Source: Candidatus Venteria ishoeyi
GTDB lineage: Bacteria; Pseudomonadota; Gammaproteobacteria; Beggiatoales; Beggiatoaceae
Length of the DNA: 50,182 bases
Assembly (NCBI RefSeq): GCF_030378065.1
Contig: NZ_JAUCGJ010000036.1
Span: 1-50,182, forward strand
Direction: 5' to 3'
Program-made: the position numbers and the translations under genes
In this document: positions 4,046-43,223 of the stretch, one piece after another
Layout of the letters: every line of letters begins with the position of its first letter
Position numbering within the stretch: position 1 is the stretch's first letter
The notes under the pieces: generated by a model
Database searches by the model: none
Told to the model about the DNA's origin: nothing
The model's input: only the letters and a program-made list of their open reading frames with translations

Positions 4046-5251
4046 ATGACTTCTGCAGAACGTATTCAATATCTGGCAAATGTCTTATATTTTTTTCCAA
4101 AAGAAAATCCTGAGCTGGTGCAATCGGCCTTATTTACCCAGATATGTAATACGCTTGAAGCCGAAGAAACGGAAGTCTTAAAAGCCCAGCAATATCATCA
4201 GGAAAAGGGGTTTAAAGTCACACCTGTTGGCATTTTTTCCAGGCAAGTCAGTAATCTGGAAGATATGTTATTGTTTGCTTTTCAACATGAACAATTGGAT
4301 GCCGTAGATAAAAAAGTCTTGTTGAGTTTTTCAAAAACCCTGGGATTCAGTCAGCAGCAAATACAAATGCTGGCTAGCCAAAGCCGGGAACGCCTGCTGC
4401 AACAAACACAGTGGGAAGCCTGTTGGCAATGTGGCACCCAAAAATTACGCAGTTTCCGTTTTTGCCCGGAATGTGGCGCACACCAGAAACACACGATAGC
4501 CTTACTGGAAAGCCAGAAAAAACAATCACCCTGCTTTGATCCCAAAAAAAATAAAGGTCTGTGTCTGGCATTTGACCAGGATATTCACAGTGATGTGTTA
4601 TTACACCTTGCCCGTAGCGCACCCAAATATCAGGAAATTGCCAAATCGGAACAAGCAGGCGAACATCTTTGGAGTTTTGCCACCTGGCCGCAGCAAAAAA
4701 TACTGGATGCCTTACCGCTGGCAACGCAGCTTAGCAAACAAAGTGAAACCCAGCGCGGTGTTTATATTGAAGGCGTGCCGCAACCCTGGGAGCGCTGTTT
4801 TGCTTTTCTCGATTGCCTGCAACAACGCCAGTGTACCTATCATCCAGCAGAGCATTGTTTTGGTCTGAATACTGATAGCCCGAATATCTGGGGTTGCCAG
4901 CGCGCGCAATTGAATTGGGATAAAGATGCAAGCTGGTTATGTGACGGTCAATTTGAAAGCGAGCAGGTGTTTTGTTTGGATAAGGCTAAAATTAACCACC
5001 GTCTGCAAACCAATCTGCAAAACTACCATTTATGTCCATTTTTGCAACTTAAAAAAATTGAGCATATGCTCAGTCAATTACCTGAAAAAATATTAATTGA
5101 TCAGAAAAACTGGGGTTATCAGAAAATCACTAAAGAACGCCCTGGCGCGATTACGCTGGATAAACCCCAACAATTTGCTATCGGGGTTGCGCCTTTGCAA
5201 TTCGATGAGGCGCAGTTATGGATAAAAAAAATCTTCGAGCCTATGTGGTAA
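4046..5251 (+). CDS. Hypothetical protein with a central zinc ribbon
   Basis: Protein of 401 residues, start ATG nine bases after the DamX-like stop, so probably the last gene of that operon. Function not recognised. Residues about 65-112 (LEDMLLFAFQHEQLDAVDKK and following helices) resemble the helical TerB/DjlA-type fold by eye only. Cys126, Cys129, Cys140 and Cys143 form a clear CxxC-x10-CxxC zinc ribbon (CWQCG and CPECG). The C-terminal 250 residues are soluble, rich in Gln, Trp and Cys, with no membrane segment or signal peptide, and match no family I know. An R1 repeat begins 50 bases after the stop. The operon position suggests a cell-envelope or division-related job, but that is guesswork. 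Confidence 0.8.
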   Translation: MTSAERIQYLANVLYFFPKENPELVQSALFTQICNTLEAEETEVLKAQQYHQEKGFKVTPVGIFSRQVSNLEDMLLFAFQHEQLDAVDKKVLLSFSKTLGFSQQQIQMLASQSRERLLQQTQWEACWQCGTQKLRSFRFCPECGAHQKHTIALLESQKKQSPCFDPKKNKGLCLAFDQDIHSDVLLHLARSAPKYQEIAKSEQAGEHLWSFATWPQQKILDALPLATQLSKQSETQRGVYIEGVPQPWERCFAFLDCLQQRQCTYHPAEHCFGLNTDSPNIWGCQRAQLNWDKDASWLCDGQFESEQVFCLDKAKINHRLQTNLQNYHLCPFLQLKKIEHMLSQLPEKILIDQKNWGYQKITKERPGAITLDKPQQFAIGVAPLQFDEAQLWIKKIFEPMW

Positions 5252-5300
5252 GATTTTTTAGTATCAAAAAATGATATGGTTAAGACTATTATTCGTATCA

Positions 5301-5386
5301 TAACCTGAGTTCGATATAAGATTCATTCATCGCTAAGGCGATGAGTATAAAATTTTTTCCAAAGTGCTTACGTCGAACTGAGACTA
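5301..5386. repeat. Intergenic R1 repeat, both ends present
   Basis: Left end TAACCTGAGTTCGATATAAG (5301-5320) and right end CTTACGTCGAACTGAGA (5368-5384) are inverted copies of each other. A short palindrome, ATCGCTAAGGCGAT, lies inside. The element ends 23 bases before the Fic gene. Confidence 0.75.
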
Positions 5387-5409
5387 TCATAAGTGGTTTT
5401 TTGTAGAAT

Positions 5410-6501
5410 ATGTGGATTTGGCAACAAACAAACTGGCCAGACTTTTCTTATCAGGCAGCGTTGATTTTACCGGCATTGGAGAATGTCGTTAAAAGTGTTG
5501 CGCCACTGACGCTGCTGGCAACCGAACTGGATGAAAAGCAACGCTTAACCCTTGAGTCACAGGTTTTGCTGGAAGAAGCGCTGGCAACAGCAAAAATTGA
5601 GGGGGAAATGCTGGACCGGGAATCCGTGCGCTCCAGTATTGCCAGGCAATTGGGTATCGGGATTACGCAACAAGCCAGTTCAAAATCAGCCCAGGCATTT
5701 GTTACCGTACTATTGGAAGCCGTGCGTACGGCAACACAGACATTGACTGAAAAACAACTGTTTCAGTGGCATCAGCGTATGTTTATAGATAAACCAATAT
5801 TATATGATATGACAATTGGTGATTATCGTGACGAAACAATGCAAGTGCTTTCAGGACGGCATGGTCGACAAATCGTACATTTTCAGGCAGCTTGCGTTTC
5901 TCATGCTTGCGTGAGTGCGGAAATGCACGCTTTTTTATCCTGGCTGAATACAAAACATCAAATGTCAGTTTATATTAAAGCGGCAATTGCAAAATTCTGG
6001 TTTGTGAGCATTCACCCTTTTGAAGATGGTAACGGGCGTTTATCGCGTATGATTGCTGAGCGGACGCTGGTATGCTCTGAGTCTGGTGGTTTGCGTTTAT
6101 ATTCAATTTCTCAGCAAATAGATCAGCATAAAAGTGATTATTATGCCTTATTGGAACAATGTCAAAAAGGCAGTATGGATATCACACCGTGGATTATCTG
6201 GTTCTTAGAACAGATAGCACTGGCAGCGCAGTCAAGTATGACAAAATTATACAAAATCCGCATTGCGGTCTTATTTTGGGACAGGTACCGTGATGTTGTT
6301 TTTAACCCGCGTCAAATTAAATTAATTAAGCGCTTATTGGAAACTGAGGATTTTGCTGATGGTATTGCGCGGAAAAAGTATAAAAACCTGGTAAAAACAA
6401 CTGATATTACGGCTTCGCGTGATTTAAAGAATTTGTGCGATAAAGCTGTTTTAATACCAGTTGGTGCAGGACGCTCATTAAAATATCGGCTAAAAATCTA
6501 A
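5410..6501 (+). CDS. Fic family protein, class II (N-terminal inhibitory motif)
   Basis: Predicted AMP-transferase (adenylylating or de-adenylylating) of 363 residues. The catalytic Fic motif HPFEDGNGR is intact at residues 202-210, with the target-docking flap region around 145-160. The N-terminus (MWIWQQTNWP onward) matches the DUF4172-type domain seen in many stand-alone Fic proteins. TAKIEG at 60-65 fits the inhibitory (S/T)xxxE(G/N) helix placed N-terminal to the Fic core, which defines class II. The C-terminal 90 residues look like a winged helix (FNPRQIKLIKRLLE and onward). No separate antitoxin gene is adjacent, consistent with built-in inhibition. The start lacks an obvious ribosome binding site and follows the R1 repeat. 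The target protein is unknown. Confidence 0.92.
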   Translation: MWIWQQTNWPDFSYQAALILPALENVVKSVAPLTLLATELDEKQRLTLESQVLLEEALATAKIEGEMLDRESVRSSIARQLGIGITQQASSKSAQAFVTVLLEAVRTATQTLTEKQLFQWHQRMFIDKPILYDMTIGDYRDETMQVLSGRHGRQIVHFQAACVSHACVSAEMHAFLSWLNTKHQMSVYIKAAIAKFWFVSIHPFEDGNGRLSRMIAERTLVCSESGGLRLYSISQQIDQHKSDYYALLEQCQKGSMDITPWIIWFLEQIALAAQSSMTKLYKIRIAVLFWDRYRDVVFNPRQIKLIKRLLETEDFADGIARKKYKNLVKTTDITASRDLKNLCDKAVLIPVGAGRSLKYRLKI

Positions 6502-6514
6502 ATTTTACAATTTT

Positions 6515-7828
6515 ATGATAAATCAAAAAGAATTTACACAGCGCCGTAAGGCTTTGATGGAACTCATTGGTCCCGGCGGCATCGCCTTAATTCCCACAGC
6601 ACCGGTAAAAAGCCGTAACCGGGATGTGGATTACCCCTATCGTCCTGACAGTTATTTTTATTATTTAACCGGTTTTGCCGAGCAGGAGGCTTTAGCTGTA
6701 TTGATTCCAGGACGTGAACAGGGCCAATATCTGCTGTTTTGCCGGGAAAAAGACCCGGAGCAGGAAACCTGGCACGGGCGGCGCGTGGGGCTGGAAAATG
6801 CTTGCGATATTTACGGTGCAGATGATGCCTTCCCGATTGATGATGTCGATGATATTGTGCCGGGTTTGCTGGAAAACTGTTCACGCCTGTATTATGCAAT
6901 GGGTTATGACGCCGCATTTGATGAGCAGGTGCATGGCTGGCTCAATGGCCTGCGGGCAAGGGTTCGGGAAGGGGTTTGCGCACCGACGGAAACCATTCAT
7001 CTGGATCATTTAATCAATGAATTGCGATTATTCAAAAGTCCGGCAGAAATTGCAACCCTGCGGATCTCCGCCAATATTGCCATTGCCGCACACCGTCGGG
7101 CGATGGAATGCTGCCGTCCAGGCATGAATGAATACCAGATTGCCGCACAGATTTCGCATACTTTCATGGAACGCAATGCCCAGATGGCTTACCCTTCCAT
7201 TGTTGGCGGTGGTGAAAACAGTTGTATTCTGCATTACATGGAAAACAATACACCACTCGCCGATGGCGATGTCCTGTTGATTGATGCAGGCGCGGAATAT
7301 CAGTTTTATGCCTCCGATATTACCCGTACCATCCCGGTTAACGGGCGTTTCACGCCTGCGCAAAAAGCAGTTTACGAGGTGGTATTAAACGCGCAGGAAG
7401 CCGCCATTGCGGAAGTTTATCCTGGTAACCCCTGGATCATGCCACATCTTGCTGCAATTGAAAGTATTACGGAAGGTTTATTAAACCTGGGTTTGTTGCA
7501 GGGAGAGCTGGATAGTCTGATTGAAAATGAAGCTTATAAACGTTTTTTCATGCATCGCAGTGGTCATTGGTTAGGTATGGATGTGCATGATGTGGGTGAA
7601 TACAAAGTCAATCAGGAATGGCGGGGATTTGAATCGGGCATGGTGCTCACTGTTGAGCCGGGCATTTATATTCCTGCTGGTGATGAAGATATTGCACCTA
7701 AATGGTGGAATATCGGTATCCGTATTGAAGATGATGTCCTGGTCACTGACACAGGACACGAAGTGCTGACTGCTGCTTTAGAAAAAACGGTTGCCGAAAT
7801 TGAAAACCGCATGTCCCAGCACTTATAA
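6515..7828 (+). CDS. pepP: Xaa-Pro aminopeptidase (M24B)
   Basis: Cytoplasmic di-manganese aminopeptidase that removes N-terminal residues preceding proline. It has 437 residues, the usual PepP length. An AMP_N domain covers about 1-135 and the pita-bread M24 domain about 175-430. All five metal ligands are visible: Asp257 (LLIDAGAEY), Asp268 (SDITRTIPV), His351 (GHWLGMDVHD), Glu381 (TVEPGIY) and Glu405 (IRIEDDVLV), close to the E. coli numbering. It starts 13 bases after the Fic stop with a weak ribosome binding site. In many gammaproteobacteria pepP is followed by ubiH; here a sulfotransferase gene follows after 25 bases. Confidence 0.96.
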   Translation: MINQKEFTQRRKALMELIGPGGIALIPTAPVKSRNRDVDYPYRPDSYFYYLTGFAEQEALAVLIPGREQGQYLLFCREKDPEQETWHGRRVGLENACDIYGADDAFPIDDVDDIVPGLLENCSRLYYAMGYDAAFDEQVHGWLNGLRARVREGVCAPTETIHLDHLINELRLFKSPAEIATLRISANIAIAAHRRAMECCRPGMNEYQIAAQISHTFMERNAQMAYPSIVGGGENSCILHYMENNTPLADGDVLLIDAGAEYQFYASDITRTIPVNGRFTPAQKAVYEVVLNAQEAAIAEVYPGNPWIMPHLAAIESITEGLLNLGLLQGELDSLIENEAYKRFFMHRSGHWLGMDVHDVGEYKVNQEWRGFESGMVLTVEPGIYIPAGDEDIAPKWWNIGIRIEDDVLVTDTGHEVLTAALEKTVAEIENRMSQHL

Positions 7829-7853
7829 CCTTATTAAATAAAACAAACCTATT

Positions 7854-8726
7854 ATGTCAAAACTTCTCAGCATTCCTGCCAGCCATTCACAAAATCACGG
7901 CACCTGGGCGCAAGCTCAATTCCTGCTCTTTTGGTACAGTTGGTTGAGGTGGCAAAGAACGGATGTCAGTGCTTTGCCGCCACCTATCATCATTGGTGCT
8001 TTAGGGGGATCGGGAACACGTATGTTAGTCCAGTTTCTGCAAAGTGCCGGGGTGTGGATGGGGACATGGATAAATCCAAGAACGGAAGATGCTATGGCAA
8101 CCCGCCATTTTTTTCAGAAATATTTTGTAGATACTTTCTGTTTATTAGAACAGCAACAAAAAATTCCAGCACATTTATTGGCATGTTTTCAACAAACCAT
8201 ACGCGCACACCGTTGGCATATACCACAGCCTGAGCAAGCCTGGGGATTTAAAAATCCCCGTAGCATGTGGCTGATTCCTTTTATCCAACAACTTTATCCT
8301 GACATGAAGTTTATTCATGTGGTGCGTGATGGGCGGGATATGGCTTTAAGCAATAATCAAAACTTACTGGCTAAACATGCCGGGCTGCTATTAGGTGAAG
8401 CTGGCATGAAACAGGATATGCTGCACCAGCAACTGCTGTTATGGGACAAAGGTAACCGGATTGCCCGTACCACAGGAGAAAAACTCAATAAGGGTCATTA
8501 TTTGATATTAAAATACGAAGACTTATGTTTTCAGCCCAGAGAGACTTTAACCACTTTATTGCAATTTATCGGGCACCCGGTTGATACGACATTAATTGAA
8601 CAGGGGTGTCAAAAATTGAAACCTTCTCCCGGTATCGGACGCTGGCAACAACAAAGCACGGTGATTGAAGCGGCACTGACAGCCAGCATAAAAGAGACTT
8701 TATTGGATTTTGCTTATGATGAATAA
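7854..8726 (+). CDS. Sulfotransferase family protein
   Basis: Predicted PAPS-dependent sulfotransferase of 290 residues. The 5'-phosphosulfate loop is PIIIGALGGSGTRML (44-58), and the 3'-phosphate-binding segment is FIHVVRDGRDMALSNNQNL (153-171), with Arg158 and Ser166 in the expected places. GFKNPRSMWLIPF (131-143) fits the helix between them. No signal peptide or membrane segment, so cytoplasmic. The acceptor (lipid, sugar, protein or small molecule) cannot be predicted. The 3' end overlaps the ABC ATPase gene by 11 bases, indicating cotranscription with it. No PAPS synthesis genes occur in the window. Confidence 0.85.
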   Translation: MSKLLSIPASHSQNHGTWAQAQFLLFWYSWLRWQRTDVSALPPPIIIGALGGSGTRMLVQFLQSAGVWMGTWINPRTEDAMATRHFFQKYFVDTFCLLEQQQKIPAHLLACFQQTIRAHRWHIPQPEQAWGFKNPRSMWLIPFIQQLYPDMKFIHVVRDGRDMALSNNQNLLAKHAGLLLGEAGMKQDMLHQQLLLWDKGNRIARTTGEKLNKGHYLILKYEDLCFQPRETLTTLLQFIGHPVDTTLIEQGCQKLKPSPGIGRWQQQSTVIEAALTASIKETLLDFAYDE

Positions 8727-36640: not shown

Positions 36641-37144
36641 CTAATTGTTTTGCCAGCCACAAAATGGATTCTTCTCTTTATCCGGTTCATAGTTTTTTAA
36701 TGCCTTATCGACTGTCCAGATATGTACTTTATTATTTTTATTTTTTAACCGGTTTGCTTCAAAAATCATTGTCGCATCAACTAAACCAATTTTTTGTGGC
36801 GCATAAGTATTTGAAAATTCCTGTAGAAATTTGAATAAACGCTCTTGCTCACATTCACAAGACGGTGTGACTGTAAGCCATGATGTAGCCTCAAAACTCC
36901 TGGTAATTTTTTGCTGAAGTTTATCTGCTAATACTTTTCTTTGATTTCCATCATTGACATGCGCAATAATGTTGGCAGTTTCATAGACTGAGGGTAAAGG
37001 CCAATATAAGCTGGCTTTTTCGTCTCTAGCCTTTGAGAAACGTGCTTTCACTGCTTTATAGGCTTCCAAATCAGACTTGTCGGGAACCTGAAATAACTCC
37101 AGCCAGTATCCGGTATCCACGACAATTAAAAGTCTTCCAACCAT
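36641..37144 (-). CDS. PIN-like domain protein, putative nuclease
   Basis: Protein of 167 residues. The four acidic residues of a PIN active site are in order and context: Asp10 in LLIVVDTGYW, Glu55 in LPSVYETANII, Asp123 in IGLVDATMIFEA and Asp146 in HIWTVDKAL. PIN domains are metal-dependent RNases found in toxins and in defence and RNA-maturation systems (family knowledge). Its start codon lies inside the 3' end of the ATPase gene (19-base overlap), implying translational coupling and a joint function. No small antitoxin gene of the VapB or Phd kind is adjacent. Substrate and regulation by the ATPase are inference. Confidence 0.8.
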   Translation of the reverse strand: MVGRLLIVVDTGYWLELFQVPDKSDLEAYKAVKARFSKARDEKASLYWPLPSVYETANIIAHVNDGNQRKVLADKLQQKITRSFEATSWLTVTPSCECEQERLFKFLQEFSNTYAPQKIGLVDATMIFEANRLKNKNNKVHIWTVDKALKNYEPDKEKNPFCGWQNN

Positions 37145-38436
37145 TTCATTGCCTTTTGTTGACGTTTTTTCTCAAAATTTGGCGCAAGATATTGATCGAC
37201 AATCTGGTGAGTCACCAAATCACCTAATGCGCCACGTTCAAGCATTTCCTGCTGATAAGGAAATTGTGATAATGCAATTAATTGTGTGCCATTATCTTCC
37301 AGATTCTGGTAGCACAAAACAACACCATTTAGTTGATCGGTACTTAATGCATTCAGTGTCGCAGGGTTATGTGTTGTCACAATCAGCTTGAGATTGCGTC
37401 GTTGACAGCAATCATCAATTGCTGAAACCAGCATATTAATTCGACTGGGATGTAGACCATTATCAAATTCATCCATGATAATACGCGATCCAGGATGTGC
37501 TGTTTCCAATTTAGTTAATAATGCGAGGCAACGTAAAGTACCATCCGATAAGGTTCTGGCTGTTGTCTTATTACCATTTTGTTCAATCAGGGCAAACATA
37601 CTGTCGTTATAATCTGTTACAGTAAAATGAAAATCTTGATAAGGTGTACCAGGTAACTGATTTATCCAGCTTAATAAGTGCTCCAGGCTTTGACGCTGTG
37701 TTTTATTCCCTTTTGATAAGGTAAACAAGATAGCTGAAATATTAGCTGCATTTTTGGTGAGTGGAGAAGCATCCAGGTGCGCATATTGCCGCATCAATTT
37801 GGGTTCGGGATCAAAAACAAAACTGGAAAAATAATCCGTAATATTATCAATTAACTTTTCACAAGTCTGTTTTTTTTCAGGCTTCATATGTGTGGCGAAA
37901 GTTTTATATTGAAATAATAAGGACTGCTGTAATGATGCTTGTACAGAAGGATCTTGACCCGGTTTGAAATTTTTATAAGATACTGTTCGTGTATGTAAGT
38001 CACTTTCATCATTGATAAAAATCCAATCATCTCCGGCCATGAGACATTCTCTTATAATTTCAGGTGTTTTTTCTGTATTGATGGCGAGTTCATAAAATAC
38101 CCTTTGTAACTTACCTTCAAACTTGATTTCTGCCTTGAATCCCAATCTGAATTCAGTTTTCCCATAAGTGGTGCAAGCCTGCAACCCACCCCGGATTTCC
38201 ATCCGGCTATTTCTACCCAAATCACTTGTTTCATGCAAAGCGCCACCATGTGCTAAAAAATCAAGTAGTTCCAGTGCTTCAATCAGGTTACTTTTACCTG
38301 ATCCATTTGGCCCGATTAATGTGGTTAATGGTTGGGATAAATTAAAGCTTATCCATTCAGAAGCCCTTGCGCTAAACCCTTTGAAATCTTCAAGGTAAAG
38401 ATATGCTTTTTCGATAGTAGTGGTTTCAGATAGCAT
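37126..38436 (-). CDS. SMC/OLD-like AAA ATPase (AAA_15/AAA_21 type)
   Basis: Cytoplasmic ABC-type ATPase of 436 residues. Walker A GPNGSGKS is at 42-49 in TTLIGPNGSGKSNLIEALEL, the signature is LSDGT (296-300), Walker B is RIIMDEFDNGLHPSRI (318-333) and the switch His356 is in LIVTTHNPATLNAL. There is no C-terminal TOPRIM domain, so it is not an OLD nuclease itself. ATPases of this class often work with a nuclease encoded next door, as in Septu, PARIS and related anti-phage systems. Here the neighbour is the overlapping PIN-like gene. The start is 12 bases after the metalloprotease stop. Confidence 0.9.
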   Translation of the reverse strand: MLSETTTIEKAYLYLEDFKGFSARASEWISFNLSQPLTTLIGPNGSGKSNLIEALELLDFLAHGGALHETSDLGRNSRMEIRGGLQACTTYGKTEFRLGFKAEIKFEGKLQRVFYELAINTEKTPEIIRECLMAGDDWIFINDESDLHTRTVSYKNFKPGQDPSVQASLQQSLLFQYKTFATHMKPEKKQTCEKLIDNITDYFSSFVFDPEPKLMRQYAHLDASPLTKNAANISAILFTLSKGNKTQRQSLEHLLSWINQLPGTPYQDFHFTVTDYNDSMFALIEQNGNKTTARTLSDGTLRCLALLTKLETAHPGSRIIMDEFDNGLHPSRINMLVSAIDDCCQRRNLKLIVTTHNPATLNALSTDQLNGVVLCYQNLEDNGTQLIALSQFPYQQEMLERGALGDLVTHQIVDQYLAPNFEKKRQQKAMKWLEDF

Positions 38437-38448
38437 AATTTTCCTTAT

Positions 38449-39231
38449 TTAACGCTTGTATTCCAAATACAAGATTAAAGCGCCCCAGAGAAAAGCCAGC
38501 AGCATTAATATCACGCCCATGCTATCAACAAAACGCGCGATACCATGATCGTAAGCCAGCCAGCCCAGACGTTCCAGTAAATTATGCCAGTCGTGATAAT
38601 CCGGCGCATCCATGCCGGTGACACCACCCAATAACATAAGCTGTCCGGCACGGGCATCATTAATATAAGGGGCTAAATCCATCAGGCTTTGCCCCAGCCA
38701 CCACAGGGCGATGGAGGCACCAAAAGTATCGTGATTCTTAATAAGCAGGGCAAATAAAATGATAAGCGGCATAATAAGCTGTCCCAGCGAACCGCCCAAC
38801 ACATGCATGAAATCACCCAGTAACATAAAAATTACATGTCCGGCTTCATGAAACACCAAGTTAATGTTGTGCATGAAGGAATTGCCAACCTGATTACTGG
38901 TCATGGGCATATTTAAAAACTGCCAACCCCAGATTAAAAAGAGCACATAAAGCAGTAACTGGCCAGACCAGATTAATCGGTCTGGTTGTGGCTTAACATA
39001 AAACAAGGTTTCCAATAGTGAAACAAGGCGCGAGGGTGACTTACTGATAACCGCGTTAGGCAGTTTTCTGAAACGAATTTTCCGTTCCTGCCTGCGCTGT
39101 TCTTCCTGTAACCGGGATTTAAGCCATTGCTTAAACACGATACCACAAGCAGGACACCGATCTTTAGGTGAGTCATCGTCAGAGTCACGAACCGCCCCGC
39201 AAGCAGGACATTTTGAGTAGTGTACACCCAT
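38449..39231 (-). CDS. Membrane protein with zinc ribbon and HEAGH metalloprotease motif
   Basis: Protein of 260 residues. The N-terminal zinc ribbon has Cys8, Cys11, Cys26 and Cys29 (KCPACG, RCPACGIVF). A charged cytoplasmic segment (about 34-60) is followed by about five membrane helices. HEAGH at 128-132 in NLVFHEAGHVIFMLLGDFMH is the zinc-binding HExxH of M50-like intramembrane proteases. A third ligand could be Asp185 in LMDLAPYIND, but this is not certain. It may be a regulated-proteolysis enzyme or a structural relative that has lost activity. It starts 15 bases after the Sel1-protein stop and ends 12 bases before the ATPase gene. Confidence 0.82.
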   Translation of the reverse strand: MGVHYSKCPACGAVRDSDDDSPKDRCPACGIVFKQWLKSRLQEEQRRQERKIRFRKLPNAVISKSPSRLVSLLETLFYVKPQPDRLIWSGQLLLYVLFLIWGWQFLNMPMTSNQVGNSFMHNINLVFHEAGHVIFMLLGDFMHVLGGSLGQLIMPLIILFALLIKNHDTFGASIALWWLGQSLMDLAPYINDARAGQLMLLGGVTGMDAPDYHDWHNLLERLGWLAYDHGIARFVDSMGVILMLLAFLWGALILYLEYKR

Positions 39232-42278: not shown

Positions 42279-43223
42279 TTATTCTACAGCAGGTAAATCA
42301 GGTTGTTCAGGCAGCCATGCTGCATCGGGATCGGAGGCAGTTTCACTTGAATCACTTGGCGCTGCTTCCATGACTTCTGCTTCATCAACATCTTCTGTAT
42401 CAACTACATCTTCTGTATCAACCGCATCTTCTGTATCAACTGCATCTTCTGTATCAACTACATCTTCTTCGATGACTTCATCCTCTTCGACTTCCCCTTC
42501 GGAATCAGCAACCGCTTCTTCAGTCTCATCTTCTAAAGTTGCTTCAGCATCTGCGGCTTCCATAGCCACTTCCTCTTCAATCACTTCCTCAGCCACTGCT
42601 ATTTCTGCGTCTTCAGTAGTGACTTCATCTTGTGCCATGGGTGTATCCAGCGTAATTTTATCGATCATGATGAGGGGGTCGGGCAGGTTGCGAAAATTAC
42701 CCTCTTTAATGACAGCAGCCTGATTCATTTTTTGAATAACGTCCATGCCGCTAACCACTTTGGCAAATACGGTATAACCCCATTTACGGTTGGTTTTTCC
42801 GCTATGGTTTAAGTTGGCATTATCACCCAGATTGATAAAAAACTGGGAAGTTGCAGAATGCGGATTGCCGCGACGCGCCATGGCAACCGTGCCAAACTGA
42901 TTTGAGGCGCTATGATCCGCCTCATTTTGAATCGCAGGAAATAAGGGAGATAATTTTTCCAAGTCCTGATTATAACCCCCGGTTTGCGCCATATAATCGG
43001 CAATAACCCGGTGAAAAATAACACCGTCATAAAAGCCTTCCTCGATATAAGCTAGAAAATTCTTAACTGCGCCAGGGGCTTTCTCCGGCATCAATTCCAG
43101 CGAAATTTTACCCAATGATGTATGGATATGGGCGCGTGGTGCTTGTTCTCCGGCCATTACCGGAACCCCAAACAAGAACCAAAATAAATAGGCGAGCAAG
43201 AACAGAAATGACAGTTTTTTCAT
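42279..43223 (-). CDS. Exported cyclophilin-type peptidyl-prolyl isomerase with a long acidic tail
   Basis: Protein of 314 residues. Signal peptide MKKLSFLFLLAYLFWFLFGV to about 25. A cyclophilin domain covers about 30-195 with the catalytic Arg in GVIFHRVIADYMAQTGG, SATSQFFINLGDNANLNH, and WGYTVFAKVVSGMDVI. The last about 115 residues are an extremely acidic tail rich in Glu, Asp, Ala and Val, including four copies of (A/V)VDTED encoded by an 18-base tandem repeat. Such a tail is unusual for a bacterial cyclophilin and could bind cations or basic partners. The paralogue at 43291 lies immediately upstream; a hairpin separates them. Confidence 0.92.
   Translation of the reverse strand: MKKLSFLFLLAYLFWFLFGVPVMAGEQAPRAHIHTSLGKISLELMPEKAPGAVKNFLAYIEEGFYDGVIFHRVIADYMAQTGGYNQDLEKLSPLFPAIQNEADHSASNQFGTVAMARRGNPHSATSQFFINLGDNANLNHSGKTNRKWGYTVFAKVVSGMDVIQKMNQAAVIKEGNFRNLPDPLIMIDKITLDTPMAQDEVTTEDAEIAVAEEVIEEEVAMEAADAEATLEDETEEAVADSEGEVEEDEVIEEDVVDTEDAVDTEDAVDTEDVVDTEDVDEAEVMEAAPSDSSETASDPDAAWLPEQPDLPAVE
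42391..42462. repeat. Four 18-base in-frame tandem repeats in the acidic tail
   Basis: Unit TCTTCTGTATCAACTACA, four copies, differing only at two positions (ACTACA, ACCGCA, ACTGCA, ACTACA). On the coding strand it gives the VDTED hexad repeat. Being in frame, copy-number changes would only lengthen or shorten the tail. Confidence 0.95.

Follow-up and report, generated by a model that had tools for sequence, protein, structure and literature searches.

In PARIS, the nuclease AriB is sequestered by the ATPase AriA, and upon sensing of a phage protein AriB cuts tRNA (PMC12409363). ATPases of the OLD-ABC type have also been reported, from 594 taxa, with a partner other than Toprim, namely an HNH, restriction endonuclease (REase) or PIN nuclease, and the combination with a PIN endoRNase was predicted by comparative genomics to take the place of PARIS next to BREX (PMC12839542); for this pairing, the paper refers to two earlier reports, one of them Krishnan et al. 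2020. The database PADLOC-DB holds a candidate system, PDC-M07. The PDC entries originate from work based on guilt by embedding (Payne 2024 preprint), and most of the entries in the core set still await validation (PMC12988326). Here, we analyze a gene pair of this kind on the minus strand of a contig from Candidatus Venteria ishoeyi (NZ_JAUCGJ010000036.1 in assembly GCF_030378065.1, the whole stretch of 50,182 nucleotides (nt) being referred to as the window), in which a gene for an ATPase (M07A) is followed by one for a small PIN-fold protein (M07B). A first-pass annotation of the window had known of no described system pairing this ATPase type with PIN and an intramembrane-type protease; an absence of any described ATPase–PIN pairing is contradicted by the PDC-M07 entry in PADLOC and by the OLD-ABC ATPase with PIN endoRNase reported in PMC12839542. 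The window pair is a further example of a predicted, and already catalogued, ATPase–PIN kind of candidate anti-phage system. We consider it fairly probable that the pair constitutes a mobile, PARIS-like immune unit of two genes, where the ATPase senses infection and unleashes the PIN protein as an RNase.

The ATPase matches the PDC-M07A profile of PADLOC with an E-value of 4.4e-95 (317 bits), residues 14–435 aligning to positions 6–426 of 432, and the 167-residue protein matches PDC-M07B (E 2.5e-44) with residues 7–162 on positions 6–164 of 165. In Pfam, residues 37–362 of the 436-residue ATPase match AAA_21 (E 1.4e-29) and no Toprim match was obtained for this protein, while the PIN protein has no match above the cut-off in either Pfam or NCBIfam. 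Both genes are intact. According to the list of open reading frames (ORFs), the ATPase gene is preceded by a gap of 12 nt and a third minus-strand gene (38449–39231, 260 aa), and its end overlaps the PIN gene by 19 nt. The packing into three minus-strand genes, with this gap and this overlap, had been noted in the first-pass annotation and is borne out, and the motifs it listed are all present, i.e., a ribbon and HEAGH in the third gene product, Walker A, signature, Walker B and switch histidine in the ATPase, and the acidic residues of the PIN protein. Translation of the ATPase and PIN genes is likely coupled through the overlap.

The evidence that ATPase and PIN belong together comes mainly from other genomes. 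A scan of species genomes with the PIN alignment alone gave 80 loci kept of 127 confirmed; the scan used one peptide pattern around Glu55, so that only PIN proteins with that motif could appear. In 78 of the 80 loci, the ATPase gene lies directly upstream of the PIN gene on the same strand, and the two exceptions are at contig edges, with the PIN gene starting 166 and 152 nt from the edge. In loci found with PIN alone, such adjacency is not a matter of chance. The hosts in the tree span 11 phyla, many of them represented by metagenome bins. In 75 of the 78 loci, the two genes are spaced by −61 to +15 nt, and six of the 78 have the same 19-nt overlap as the window; the outliers are −778 nt (L088, an early start call), +167 nt (L091) and +442 nt (L047). 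Furthermore, ATPase and PIN distances correlate with r = 0.84 over 70 pairs, a value that none of 1000 permutations reached (best permutation 0.10), although such a correlation is also expected from shared descent. No natural fusion of the two proteins turned up among ORFs with matches, for which no dedicated search was made. The joint function proposed in the first-pass annotation is supported by these data, as is the conserved neighborhood on which it was to be judged: ATPase and PIN form one unit with near-obligate adjacency.

Similar results were obtained closer to the window and in viral DNA. The PIN protein is patchily distributed, occurring in 15 of 143 genomes (own genome included, as in the other counts over genomes), which contain 18 PIN loci. 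An ATPase was found in 16 of the fetched stretches, in one case 369 nt away (L026) and, for L013/L036, split by a stop; the exceptions among the relatives are a locus at a contig edge (L025) and a 111-residue PIN fragment without ATPase (L023). Conversely, ATPases of this type are largely accompanied by PIN. Among 274 genomes of the class, the ATPase (E ≤ 1e-60) is present in three, and PIN in the same three. When viral contigs were searched with the ATPase, 12 loci were obtained among the matches listed (600 stretches). Six of these have an ATPase scoring above 380 bits followed by PIN, and the other six, among the matches listed, are without PIN; three of the pair-bearing loci (L124–L126) have similar scores and are possibly closely related.

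Whether the third gene is also part of the unit was considered separately, since the first-pass annotation had placed its product, a zinc-ribbon membrane protease, speculatively in one cassette with ATPase and PIN. The predicted protease combines a Cys4 ribbon, hydrophobic segments and HEAGH, and both HEAGH and the four cysteines are invariant in six aligned homologs; judged from these sequences, it represents a real, uncharacterized and patchily conserved family, which gave no match in PADLOC and none above the cut-off in Pfam. Apart from the reality of the family, the 12-nt gap in the window is what speaks for joint action of the three proteins. However, no protease homolog accompanies the pair in any of the 80 PIN loci, within the locus DNA examined. 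Matches to the protease were found in nine of the 143 genomes, two of them covering the ribbon only, and in two relatives the genes are on different contigs (pair and protease in G020, PIN fragment and protease in G009). Six neighborhoods of protease homologs contain unrelated genes by ORF reading, e.g., minD/minE-like, radA/alr-like and ubiG/gph-like, and no homolog of the pair. The protease is a bystander, and as third component it was rejected on the 80 loci and on its other neighbors in the six relatives; we regard a cassette of three cooperating genes as very improbable.

As for the ATPase, the residues of the ATP site are conserved. The alignments comprise 71 ATPases (67 of the 78) and 73 PIN proteins (69 of the 80), in each case including the window protein and three relatives, and rows that were open-ended, had odd starts or were near-duplicates were left out by eye. 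Gly47, Lys48, Ser297–Gly299 and His356 are present in all 71 ATPases, and position 323 is Glu in 70. The signature of the window protein reads SDGT at residues 297–300, and its Walker B acids are Asp322 and Glu323. At position 322, the window protein alone has Asp, and the other 70 of the 71 have Glu. The predicted structure, with a mean predicted local distance difference test score (pLDDT) of 93.8, contains no long coiled coil. By VIA-align, the model superimposes on PtuA of Septu and retrons (PDB code 9o4a) with Z 19.4 and a root-mean-square deviation (rmsd) of 3.8 over 300 aligned residues, the alignment spanning residues 2–412, and on Rad50 (9bi4) with Z 19.7 and an rmsd of 4.5, also over 300 residues, i.e., the two are tied. 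On the basis of the model, the ATPase is assigned as an ABC head of the SMC/PtuA type, AAA_21/OLD-like. Heads of the SMC, OLD and PtuA type close their ATP sites by pairing.

The likeness to Rad50 raises the question of a role in DNA repair or replication, where an SMC/Rad50-like ATPase would assist a DNA-acting nuclease in analogy to Mre11–Rad50. The PIN-like superfamily does include FEN-type DNases, which would suit such an accessory. On the other hand, a presence in 15 of 143 genomes, and in three of 274 within the class, is patchy, the pair is mobile, and the PIN model resembles VapC, with the DNases human Exo1 and T5 FEN ranking lower in Foldseek. An accessory role in repair or replication is in our opinion quite unlikely.

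The PIN model was built from the 73 sequences and has a pLDDT of 94.8. Its closest structural matches by VIA-align are VapC26 (5x3t; Z 13.9, rmsd 2.5, 132 residues aligned) and VapC20, named in the title of its entry as a cleaver of the sarcin-ricin loop (Z 13.2, rmsd 2.5, 131 residues). Foldseek is weak for this model, with a best E-value of 1.4e-3, and the PIN profile gave only chance-level matches to the sequences of solved structures; the assignment of the PIN fold thus rests on the model and VIA-align. Asp10, Glu55 and Asp123 are retained in 72 (one gap), 73 and 73 of the aligned proteins, and Asp146 in 67, the six other residues in this column being four His, one Glu and one Tyr. Glu55, Asn58 and Ala61 are present in all 73, an invariance that is partly built in because the search pattern that retrieved 69 of the 73 contains all three. 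In 16 PIN proteins gathered with the PADLOC profile instead, the same three residues are invariant, and Asp10, Asp123 and Asp146 are conserved to at least 90%. The ratio of nonsynonymous to synonymous substitution rates (dN/dS) is 0.03–0.23 in 14 of 21 gene comparisons, with saturated dS (>1) in six of the 14, and the other seven are without a computable dS. The small protein is predicted to have a PIN fold, closest to VapC toxins and with the acids in place, and by its modeled fold it probably cuts RNA. The acidic pocket foreseen in the first-pass annotation has in this way found support from a VapC-like model with conserved pocket residues. Of that annotation, the ATPase–PIN unit and the pocket are retained, and the three-gene cassette and the lack of a described pairing are not.

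Several copies of the pair are located on mobile DNA. Ten plasmids carry PIN when searched with a PIN sequence from Lachnospiraceae, and nine with one from Vibrio; the PIN sequences of the window and of one viral contig gave no match among plasmids. In all six plasmids fetched, a profile search places the ATPase before PIN, and the remaining four carry an ATPase annotation at the matching position. Some natural copies of the pair reside on plasmids of small size, for example one of 11 kb in Lactococcus lactis. On the viral contigs, integrase genes lie 0.6 kb (L124) and 2.1 kb (L126) from the pair, and in a 39-kb contig (L128, 2300–6396) the pair directly follows the gene for the large terminase subunit, so that this copy is possibly phage-borne. 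Neighbors were scanned for four of the six viral pair loci; those of L129 match only families of unknown function. In Escherichia coli genomes, no match to the Vibrio pair was obtained by blastn, a method that would miss distant copies.

A further context is a type I restriction operon. In plasmids pIFL1_3 of Vibrio campbellii and pAQU1 of Photobacterium, the gene order is hsdM, hsdS, ATPase, PIN, hsdR and SprT, and no overlap or gap around the pair exceeds 13 nt. In pIFL1_3, an AbiE-type pair (with the AbiEii-type gene upstream), the restriction operon and the M07 pair make up a single run (L187, 2543–11740). An HsdS-like ORF also ends 37 nt before the ATPase gene in one genome locus (L094). 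The link to defense rests on context, namely the status as a PADLOC candidate, the plasmids, the integrases and the position between hsdS and hsdR, and it is a candidate link.

These contexts bear on two further explanations. The pair could be a plain toxin–antitoxin or stress module, with a VapC-like toxin and the ATPase as an unusual antitoxin, which would serve maintenance of the element or a response to stress without dedicated phage sensing. A PIN fold closest to VapC, a short operon of two overlapping genes, the occurrence on plasmids and a second copy in the same genome with a broken PIN gene would all agree with this explanation. However, the partner is an ATPase of 436 residues with conserved ATP-site residues rather than a small DNA-binding antitoxin, and immunity fits better than a plain toxin–antitoxin module because the pair occurs inside a type I restriction operon; we consider such a module unlikely. 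The same operon position suggests a more specialized role, where PDC-M07 guards restriction. The ATPase would detect a phage anti-restriction protein or a jammed type I enzyme, the latter being suggested as trigger by the location of the pair between hsdS and hsdR, and PIN would then attack the sarcin-ricin loop or tRNA. More broadly, one ATPase chassis would have accepted either PIN or a Toprim-like nuclease within a single genome, with sensor and weapon being swappable. This specialized version is doubtful in our judgment, and it offers a concrete hypothesis for the trigger of the copies in restriction operons.

For the PARIS-like immune unit that we prefer, the following sequence of events can be envisaged. 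M07A would act both as sensor and as scaffold, and in analogy to AriA it would hold M07B inactive in a complex, the formation of which would be favored by coupled translation. Once infection is sensed, an ATP-dependent rearrangement would activate or free the PIN protein, which would cleave an RNA of the host translation machinery, namely 23S rRNA at its sarcin-ricin loop or a tRNA. The cleavage would lead to growth arrest, and phage production would be stopped. Here, we infer complex formation, the phage trigger, the RNA target, the abortive outcome and the protection against phage, and the way in which the ATPase holds and fires PIN is modeled on PARIS. Translation arrest is a likely outcome because VapC toxins cleave tRNA or the sarcin-ricin loop; cleavage of tRNA by these toxins is described in PMC12409363.

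A number of observations weigh against this interpretation. The genes are 442 nt apart in one locus (L047), and one of five ATPase matches at E ≤ 1e-60, in the same genome as the window (contig C9), has a Toprim-like partner instead of PIN, so that an M07A-type ATPase does not always imply PIN. The ATPase fold is equally near Rad50, a DNA-repair protein, the fourth acid is neither Asp nor Glu in five of the 73 PIN proteins, and the fold is the sole ground for assuming RNase activity. The restriction operon context is that of one plasmid group, the PIN proteins of three plasmids being 98.8–100% identical, and hsd-like genes were found by single-sequence searches in only two of the 80 genome loci, L094 being one of them. 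The PIN proteins of window and Vibrio and the ATPase of a viral contig gave no match in 50,697 phage records (E 1e-5). With respect to defense genes, 38 of the 78 two-gene loci were used to compare the two nearest genes on each side with those at a distance of over 6 kb (142 of 152 near and 148 of 151 far genes, those longer than 800 residues being dropped). Among the matches listed, from which 25 of 78 families were seen in the near set and 25 of 87 in the far set, the top family mad3 has four near and three far matches, HEC-01A, HEC-01B, AriA and others have two near matches, and restriction and methylase models have one in each set; known defense genes are thus not clearly more common beside the pair. 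The window pair itself is found in a run with housekeeping genes. Finally, the open-licence literature searched (preprints outside) yielded neither a paper with the string PDC-M07 nor an experiment on any member of the system.

The positions of the pair and its motifs are given in Table 1. Upstream of the three minus-strand genes are a Sel1-repeat gene, which ends 15 nt before the protease gene, and a metallophosphatase gene (both by Pfam), the latter labeled lpxH in the first-pass annotation. On the other side, the stop codon of the PIN gene is 11 nt from the ATG of a glycosyltransferase gene. In relatives, this glycosyltransferase gene adjoins a rho-like gene in most of 23 loci fetched, a gene order that differs from that of the window, and no empty insertion site was found among these loci. 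A scan for promoters and terminators gave no usable signal above shuffled sequence. Elsewhere in the window (42279–43223), ORF reading indicates a peptidyl-prolyl isomerase-like protein with a long acidic tail of VDTEDAVDTED-type repeats.

Table 1. Location of the ATPase–PIN pair and its sequence motifs in the window
Feature	Position	Strand	Basis
ATPase subunit, PDC-M07A type, 436 aa	37126..38436	-	ORF, PDC-M07A profile, AAA_21, model
PIN-fold nuclease-like subunit, PDC-M07B type, 167 aa	36641..37144	-	ORF, PDC-M07B profile, model
End of ATPase gene overlapping start of PIN gene, 19 nt	37126..37144	-	ORFs; spacing in relatives
Walker A, residues 41–50 (IGPNGSGKSN)	38287..38316	-	G47 and K48 in 71/71
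ABC signature, residues 297–302 (SDGTLR)	37531..37548	-	S297, D298 and G299 in 71/71
Walker B and DNGxHPSR stretch, residues 318–332	37441..37485	-	Sequence and alignment
Switch histidine H356	37369..37371	-	71/71
PIN catalytic-type Asp10	37115..37117	-	72/73, one gap
PIN catalytic-type Glu55, in E-x-x-N-H/I-I-A motif	36980..36982	-	73/73; also 16 profile-gathered sequences
PIN catalytic-type Asp123	36776..36778	-	73/73
Asp146, fourth acid of PIN, less well conserved	36707..36709	-	67/73

The same genome contains several related cassettes. On contig C9 (L151, 7278–9319), after metG, an M07A-type ATPase (234 bits to M07A) overlaps by 4 nt the gene for a 201-residue partner that has no match in Pfam or PADLOC and only chance-level matches in the PDB. 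The partner is labeled Toprim-like because, in an alignment of five rows, it shares an Asp motif and an invariant Glu with a DUF4276 protein. A homologous pair is present in the relative G020, and a broken homolog of the partner in G037. A further copy of PDC-M07 itself adjoins a ptsP-like gene on contig C94 (L152, 1–1129), its ATPase gene cut by the contig start and its PIN gene broken by stops; on contig C61 (L159, 109–669), close to a contig end, a 186-residue piece from the amino terminus of an ATPase is perhaps the other part of this gene. In the tree, the PIN-paired ATPases form one clade (support 99/89) with the two Toprim-paired ATPases outside, and because of this topology the PIN pairing may represent one old event, in a tree where most rows were gathered via PIN, several outgroup branches are long and one Toprim-paired row is of half length. 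The ATPase chassis has, accordingly, relatives with another type of nuclease.

Other cassettes are placed inside housekeeping operons. Between rpoB and rpoC on contig C57 (L158, 1732–12497), an AAA_21 ATPase of 402 residues (6187–7395) is followed by a 250-residue EGPTD protein (7398–8150); Pfam confirms the ATPase, rpoB and rpoC, and of the 95 genomes searched for the EGPTD protein, the 94 others are without a match at E 1e-20. On contig C56 (L156, 4678–12465), an ATPase and a DUF4276 protein (by Pfam) occupy 6816–8722 within a run of plsX, fabH and, further on, fabD, fabG and fabF, the fab names being assigned by reading. Two more ATPase pairs were noted, one on C67 (L157) with a DUF4276 match below the Pfam cut-off (5013–5786), and one on C46 (L160) with a 210-residue protein, possibly HNH, that has no Pfam match (5342–5974). 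The Toprim-like-paired ATPase, the copy with a broken PIN gene and the ATPase/partner cassettes in housekeeping operons of the same genome are new here.

In comparison with the known systems, the window pair has the same anatomy as PDC-M07, since both profiles match over nearly their full length and the genes are adjacent with the ATPase first; PADLOC, as searched, provides no description or mechanism for this candidate. PARIS is similar in being composed of two genes for an ATPase and a nuclease, and the window ATPase matches the AriA profile (E 3.1e-30, 104 bits), a match that is unspecific, being to the same stretch as Pfam AAA_21 and far below that to M07A (317 bits). Unlike AriB, which is a Toprim tRNase, the protein encoded next to the window ATPase is PDC-M07B, for which the model shows a VapC-like PIN fold. 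The PtuA–PtuB pair of Septu and retrons shares the two-gene layout and the ATPase fold (Z 19.4 with 9o4a). PtuB is an HNH nuclease, whereas the window partner is PIN. In OLD nucleases of classes 1–3, Toprim is fused to the ATPase, but the window ATPase is without a Toprim match. As for VapBC, the predicted fold and the conserved acids (Asp10, Glu55 and Asp123; Z 13.9 with VapC26) are alike, but the conserved neighbor of the window PIN is an ATPase of 436 residues and not a small DNA-binding VapB antitoxin.

A further parallel is PrrC, which is embedded in a type IC locus and has an anticodon nuclease that is switched on by inhibition of restriction (PMC12707154). As for M07 on pIFL1_3 and pAQU1, this is an RNase gene inside an hsd operon. 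In contrast to M07, PrrC is one protein with another type of nuclease, HEPN (PMC12409363), and the M07 copy in the window stands without hsd genes. Two PIN systems of other layouts have been validated with DefensePredictor (PMC13092281). The OLD-ABC ATPases with PIN endoRNase of PMC12839542 display, as described, the same pairing as the window; next to the window pair, where no search aimed at BREX was made, none of the BREX genes was noticed. PDC-M07 emerges as a widespread candidate, and as a compact cassette of two genes that fits on one plasmid, with natural copies on plasmids of small size, it is directly testable. If our interpretation is correct, PIN RNases would join the Toprim and HNH nucleases as weapons fired by ATPase sensors of the OLD/SMC type.

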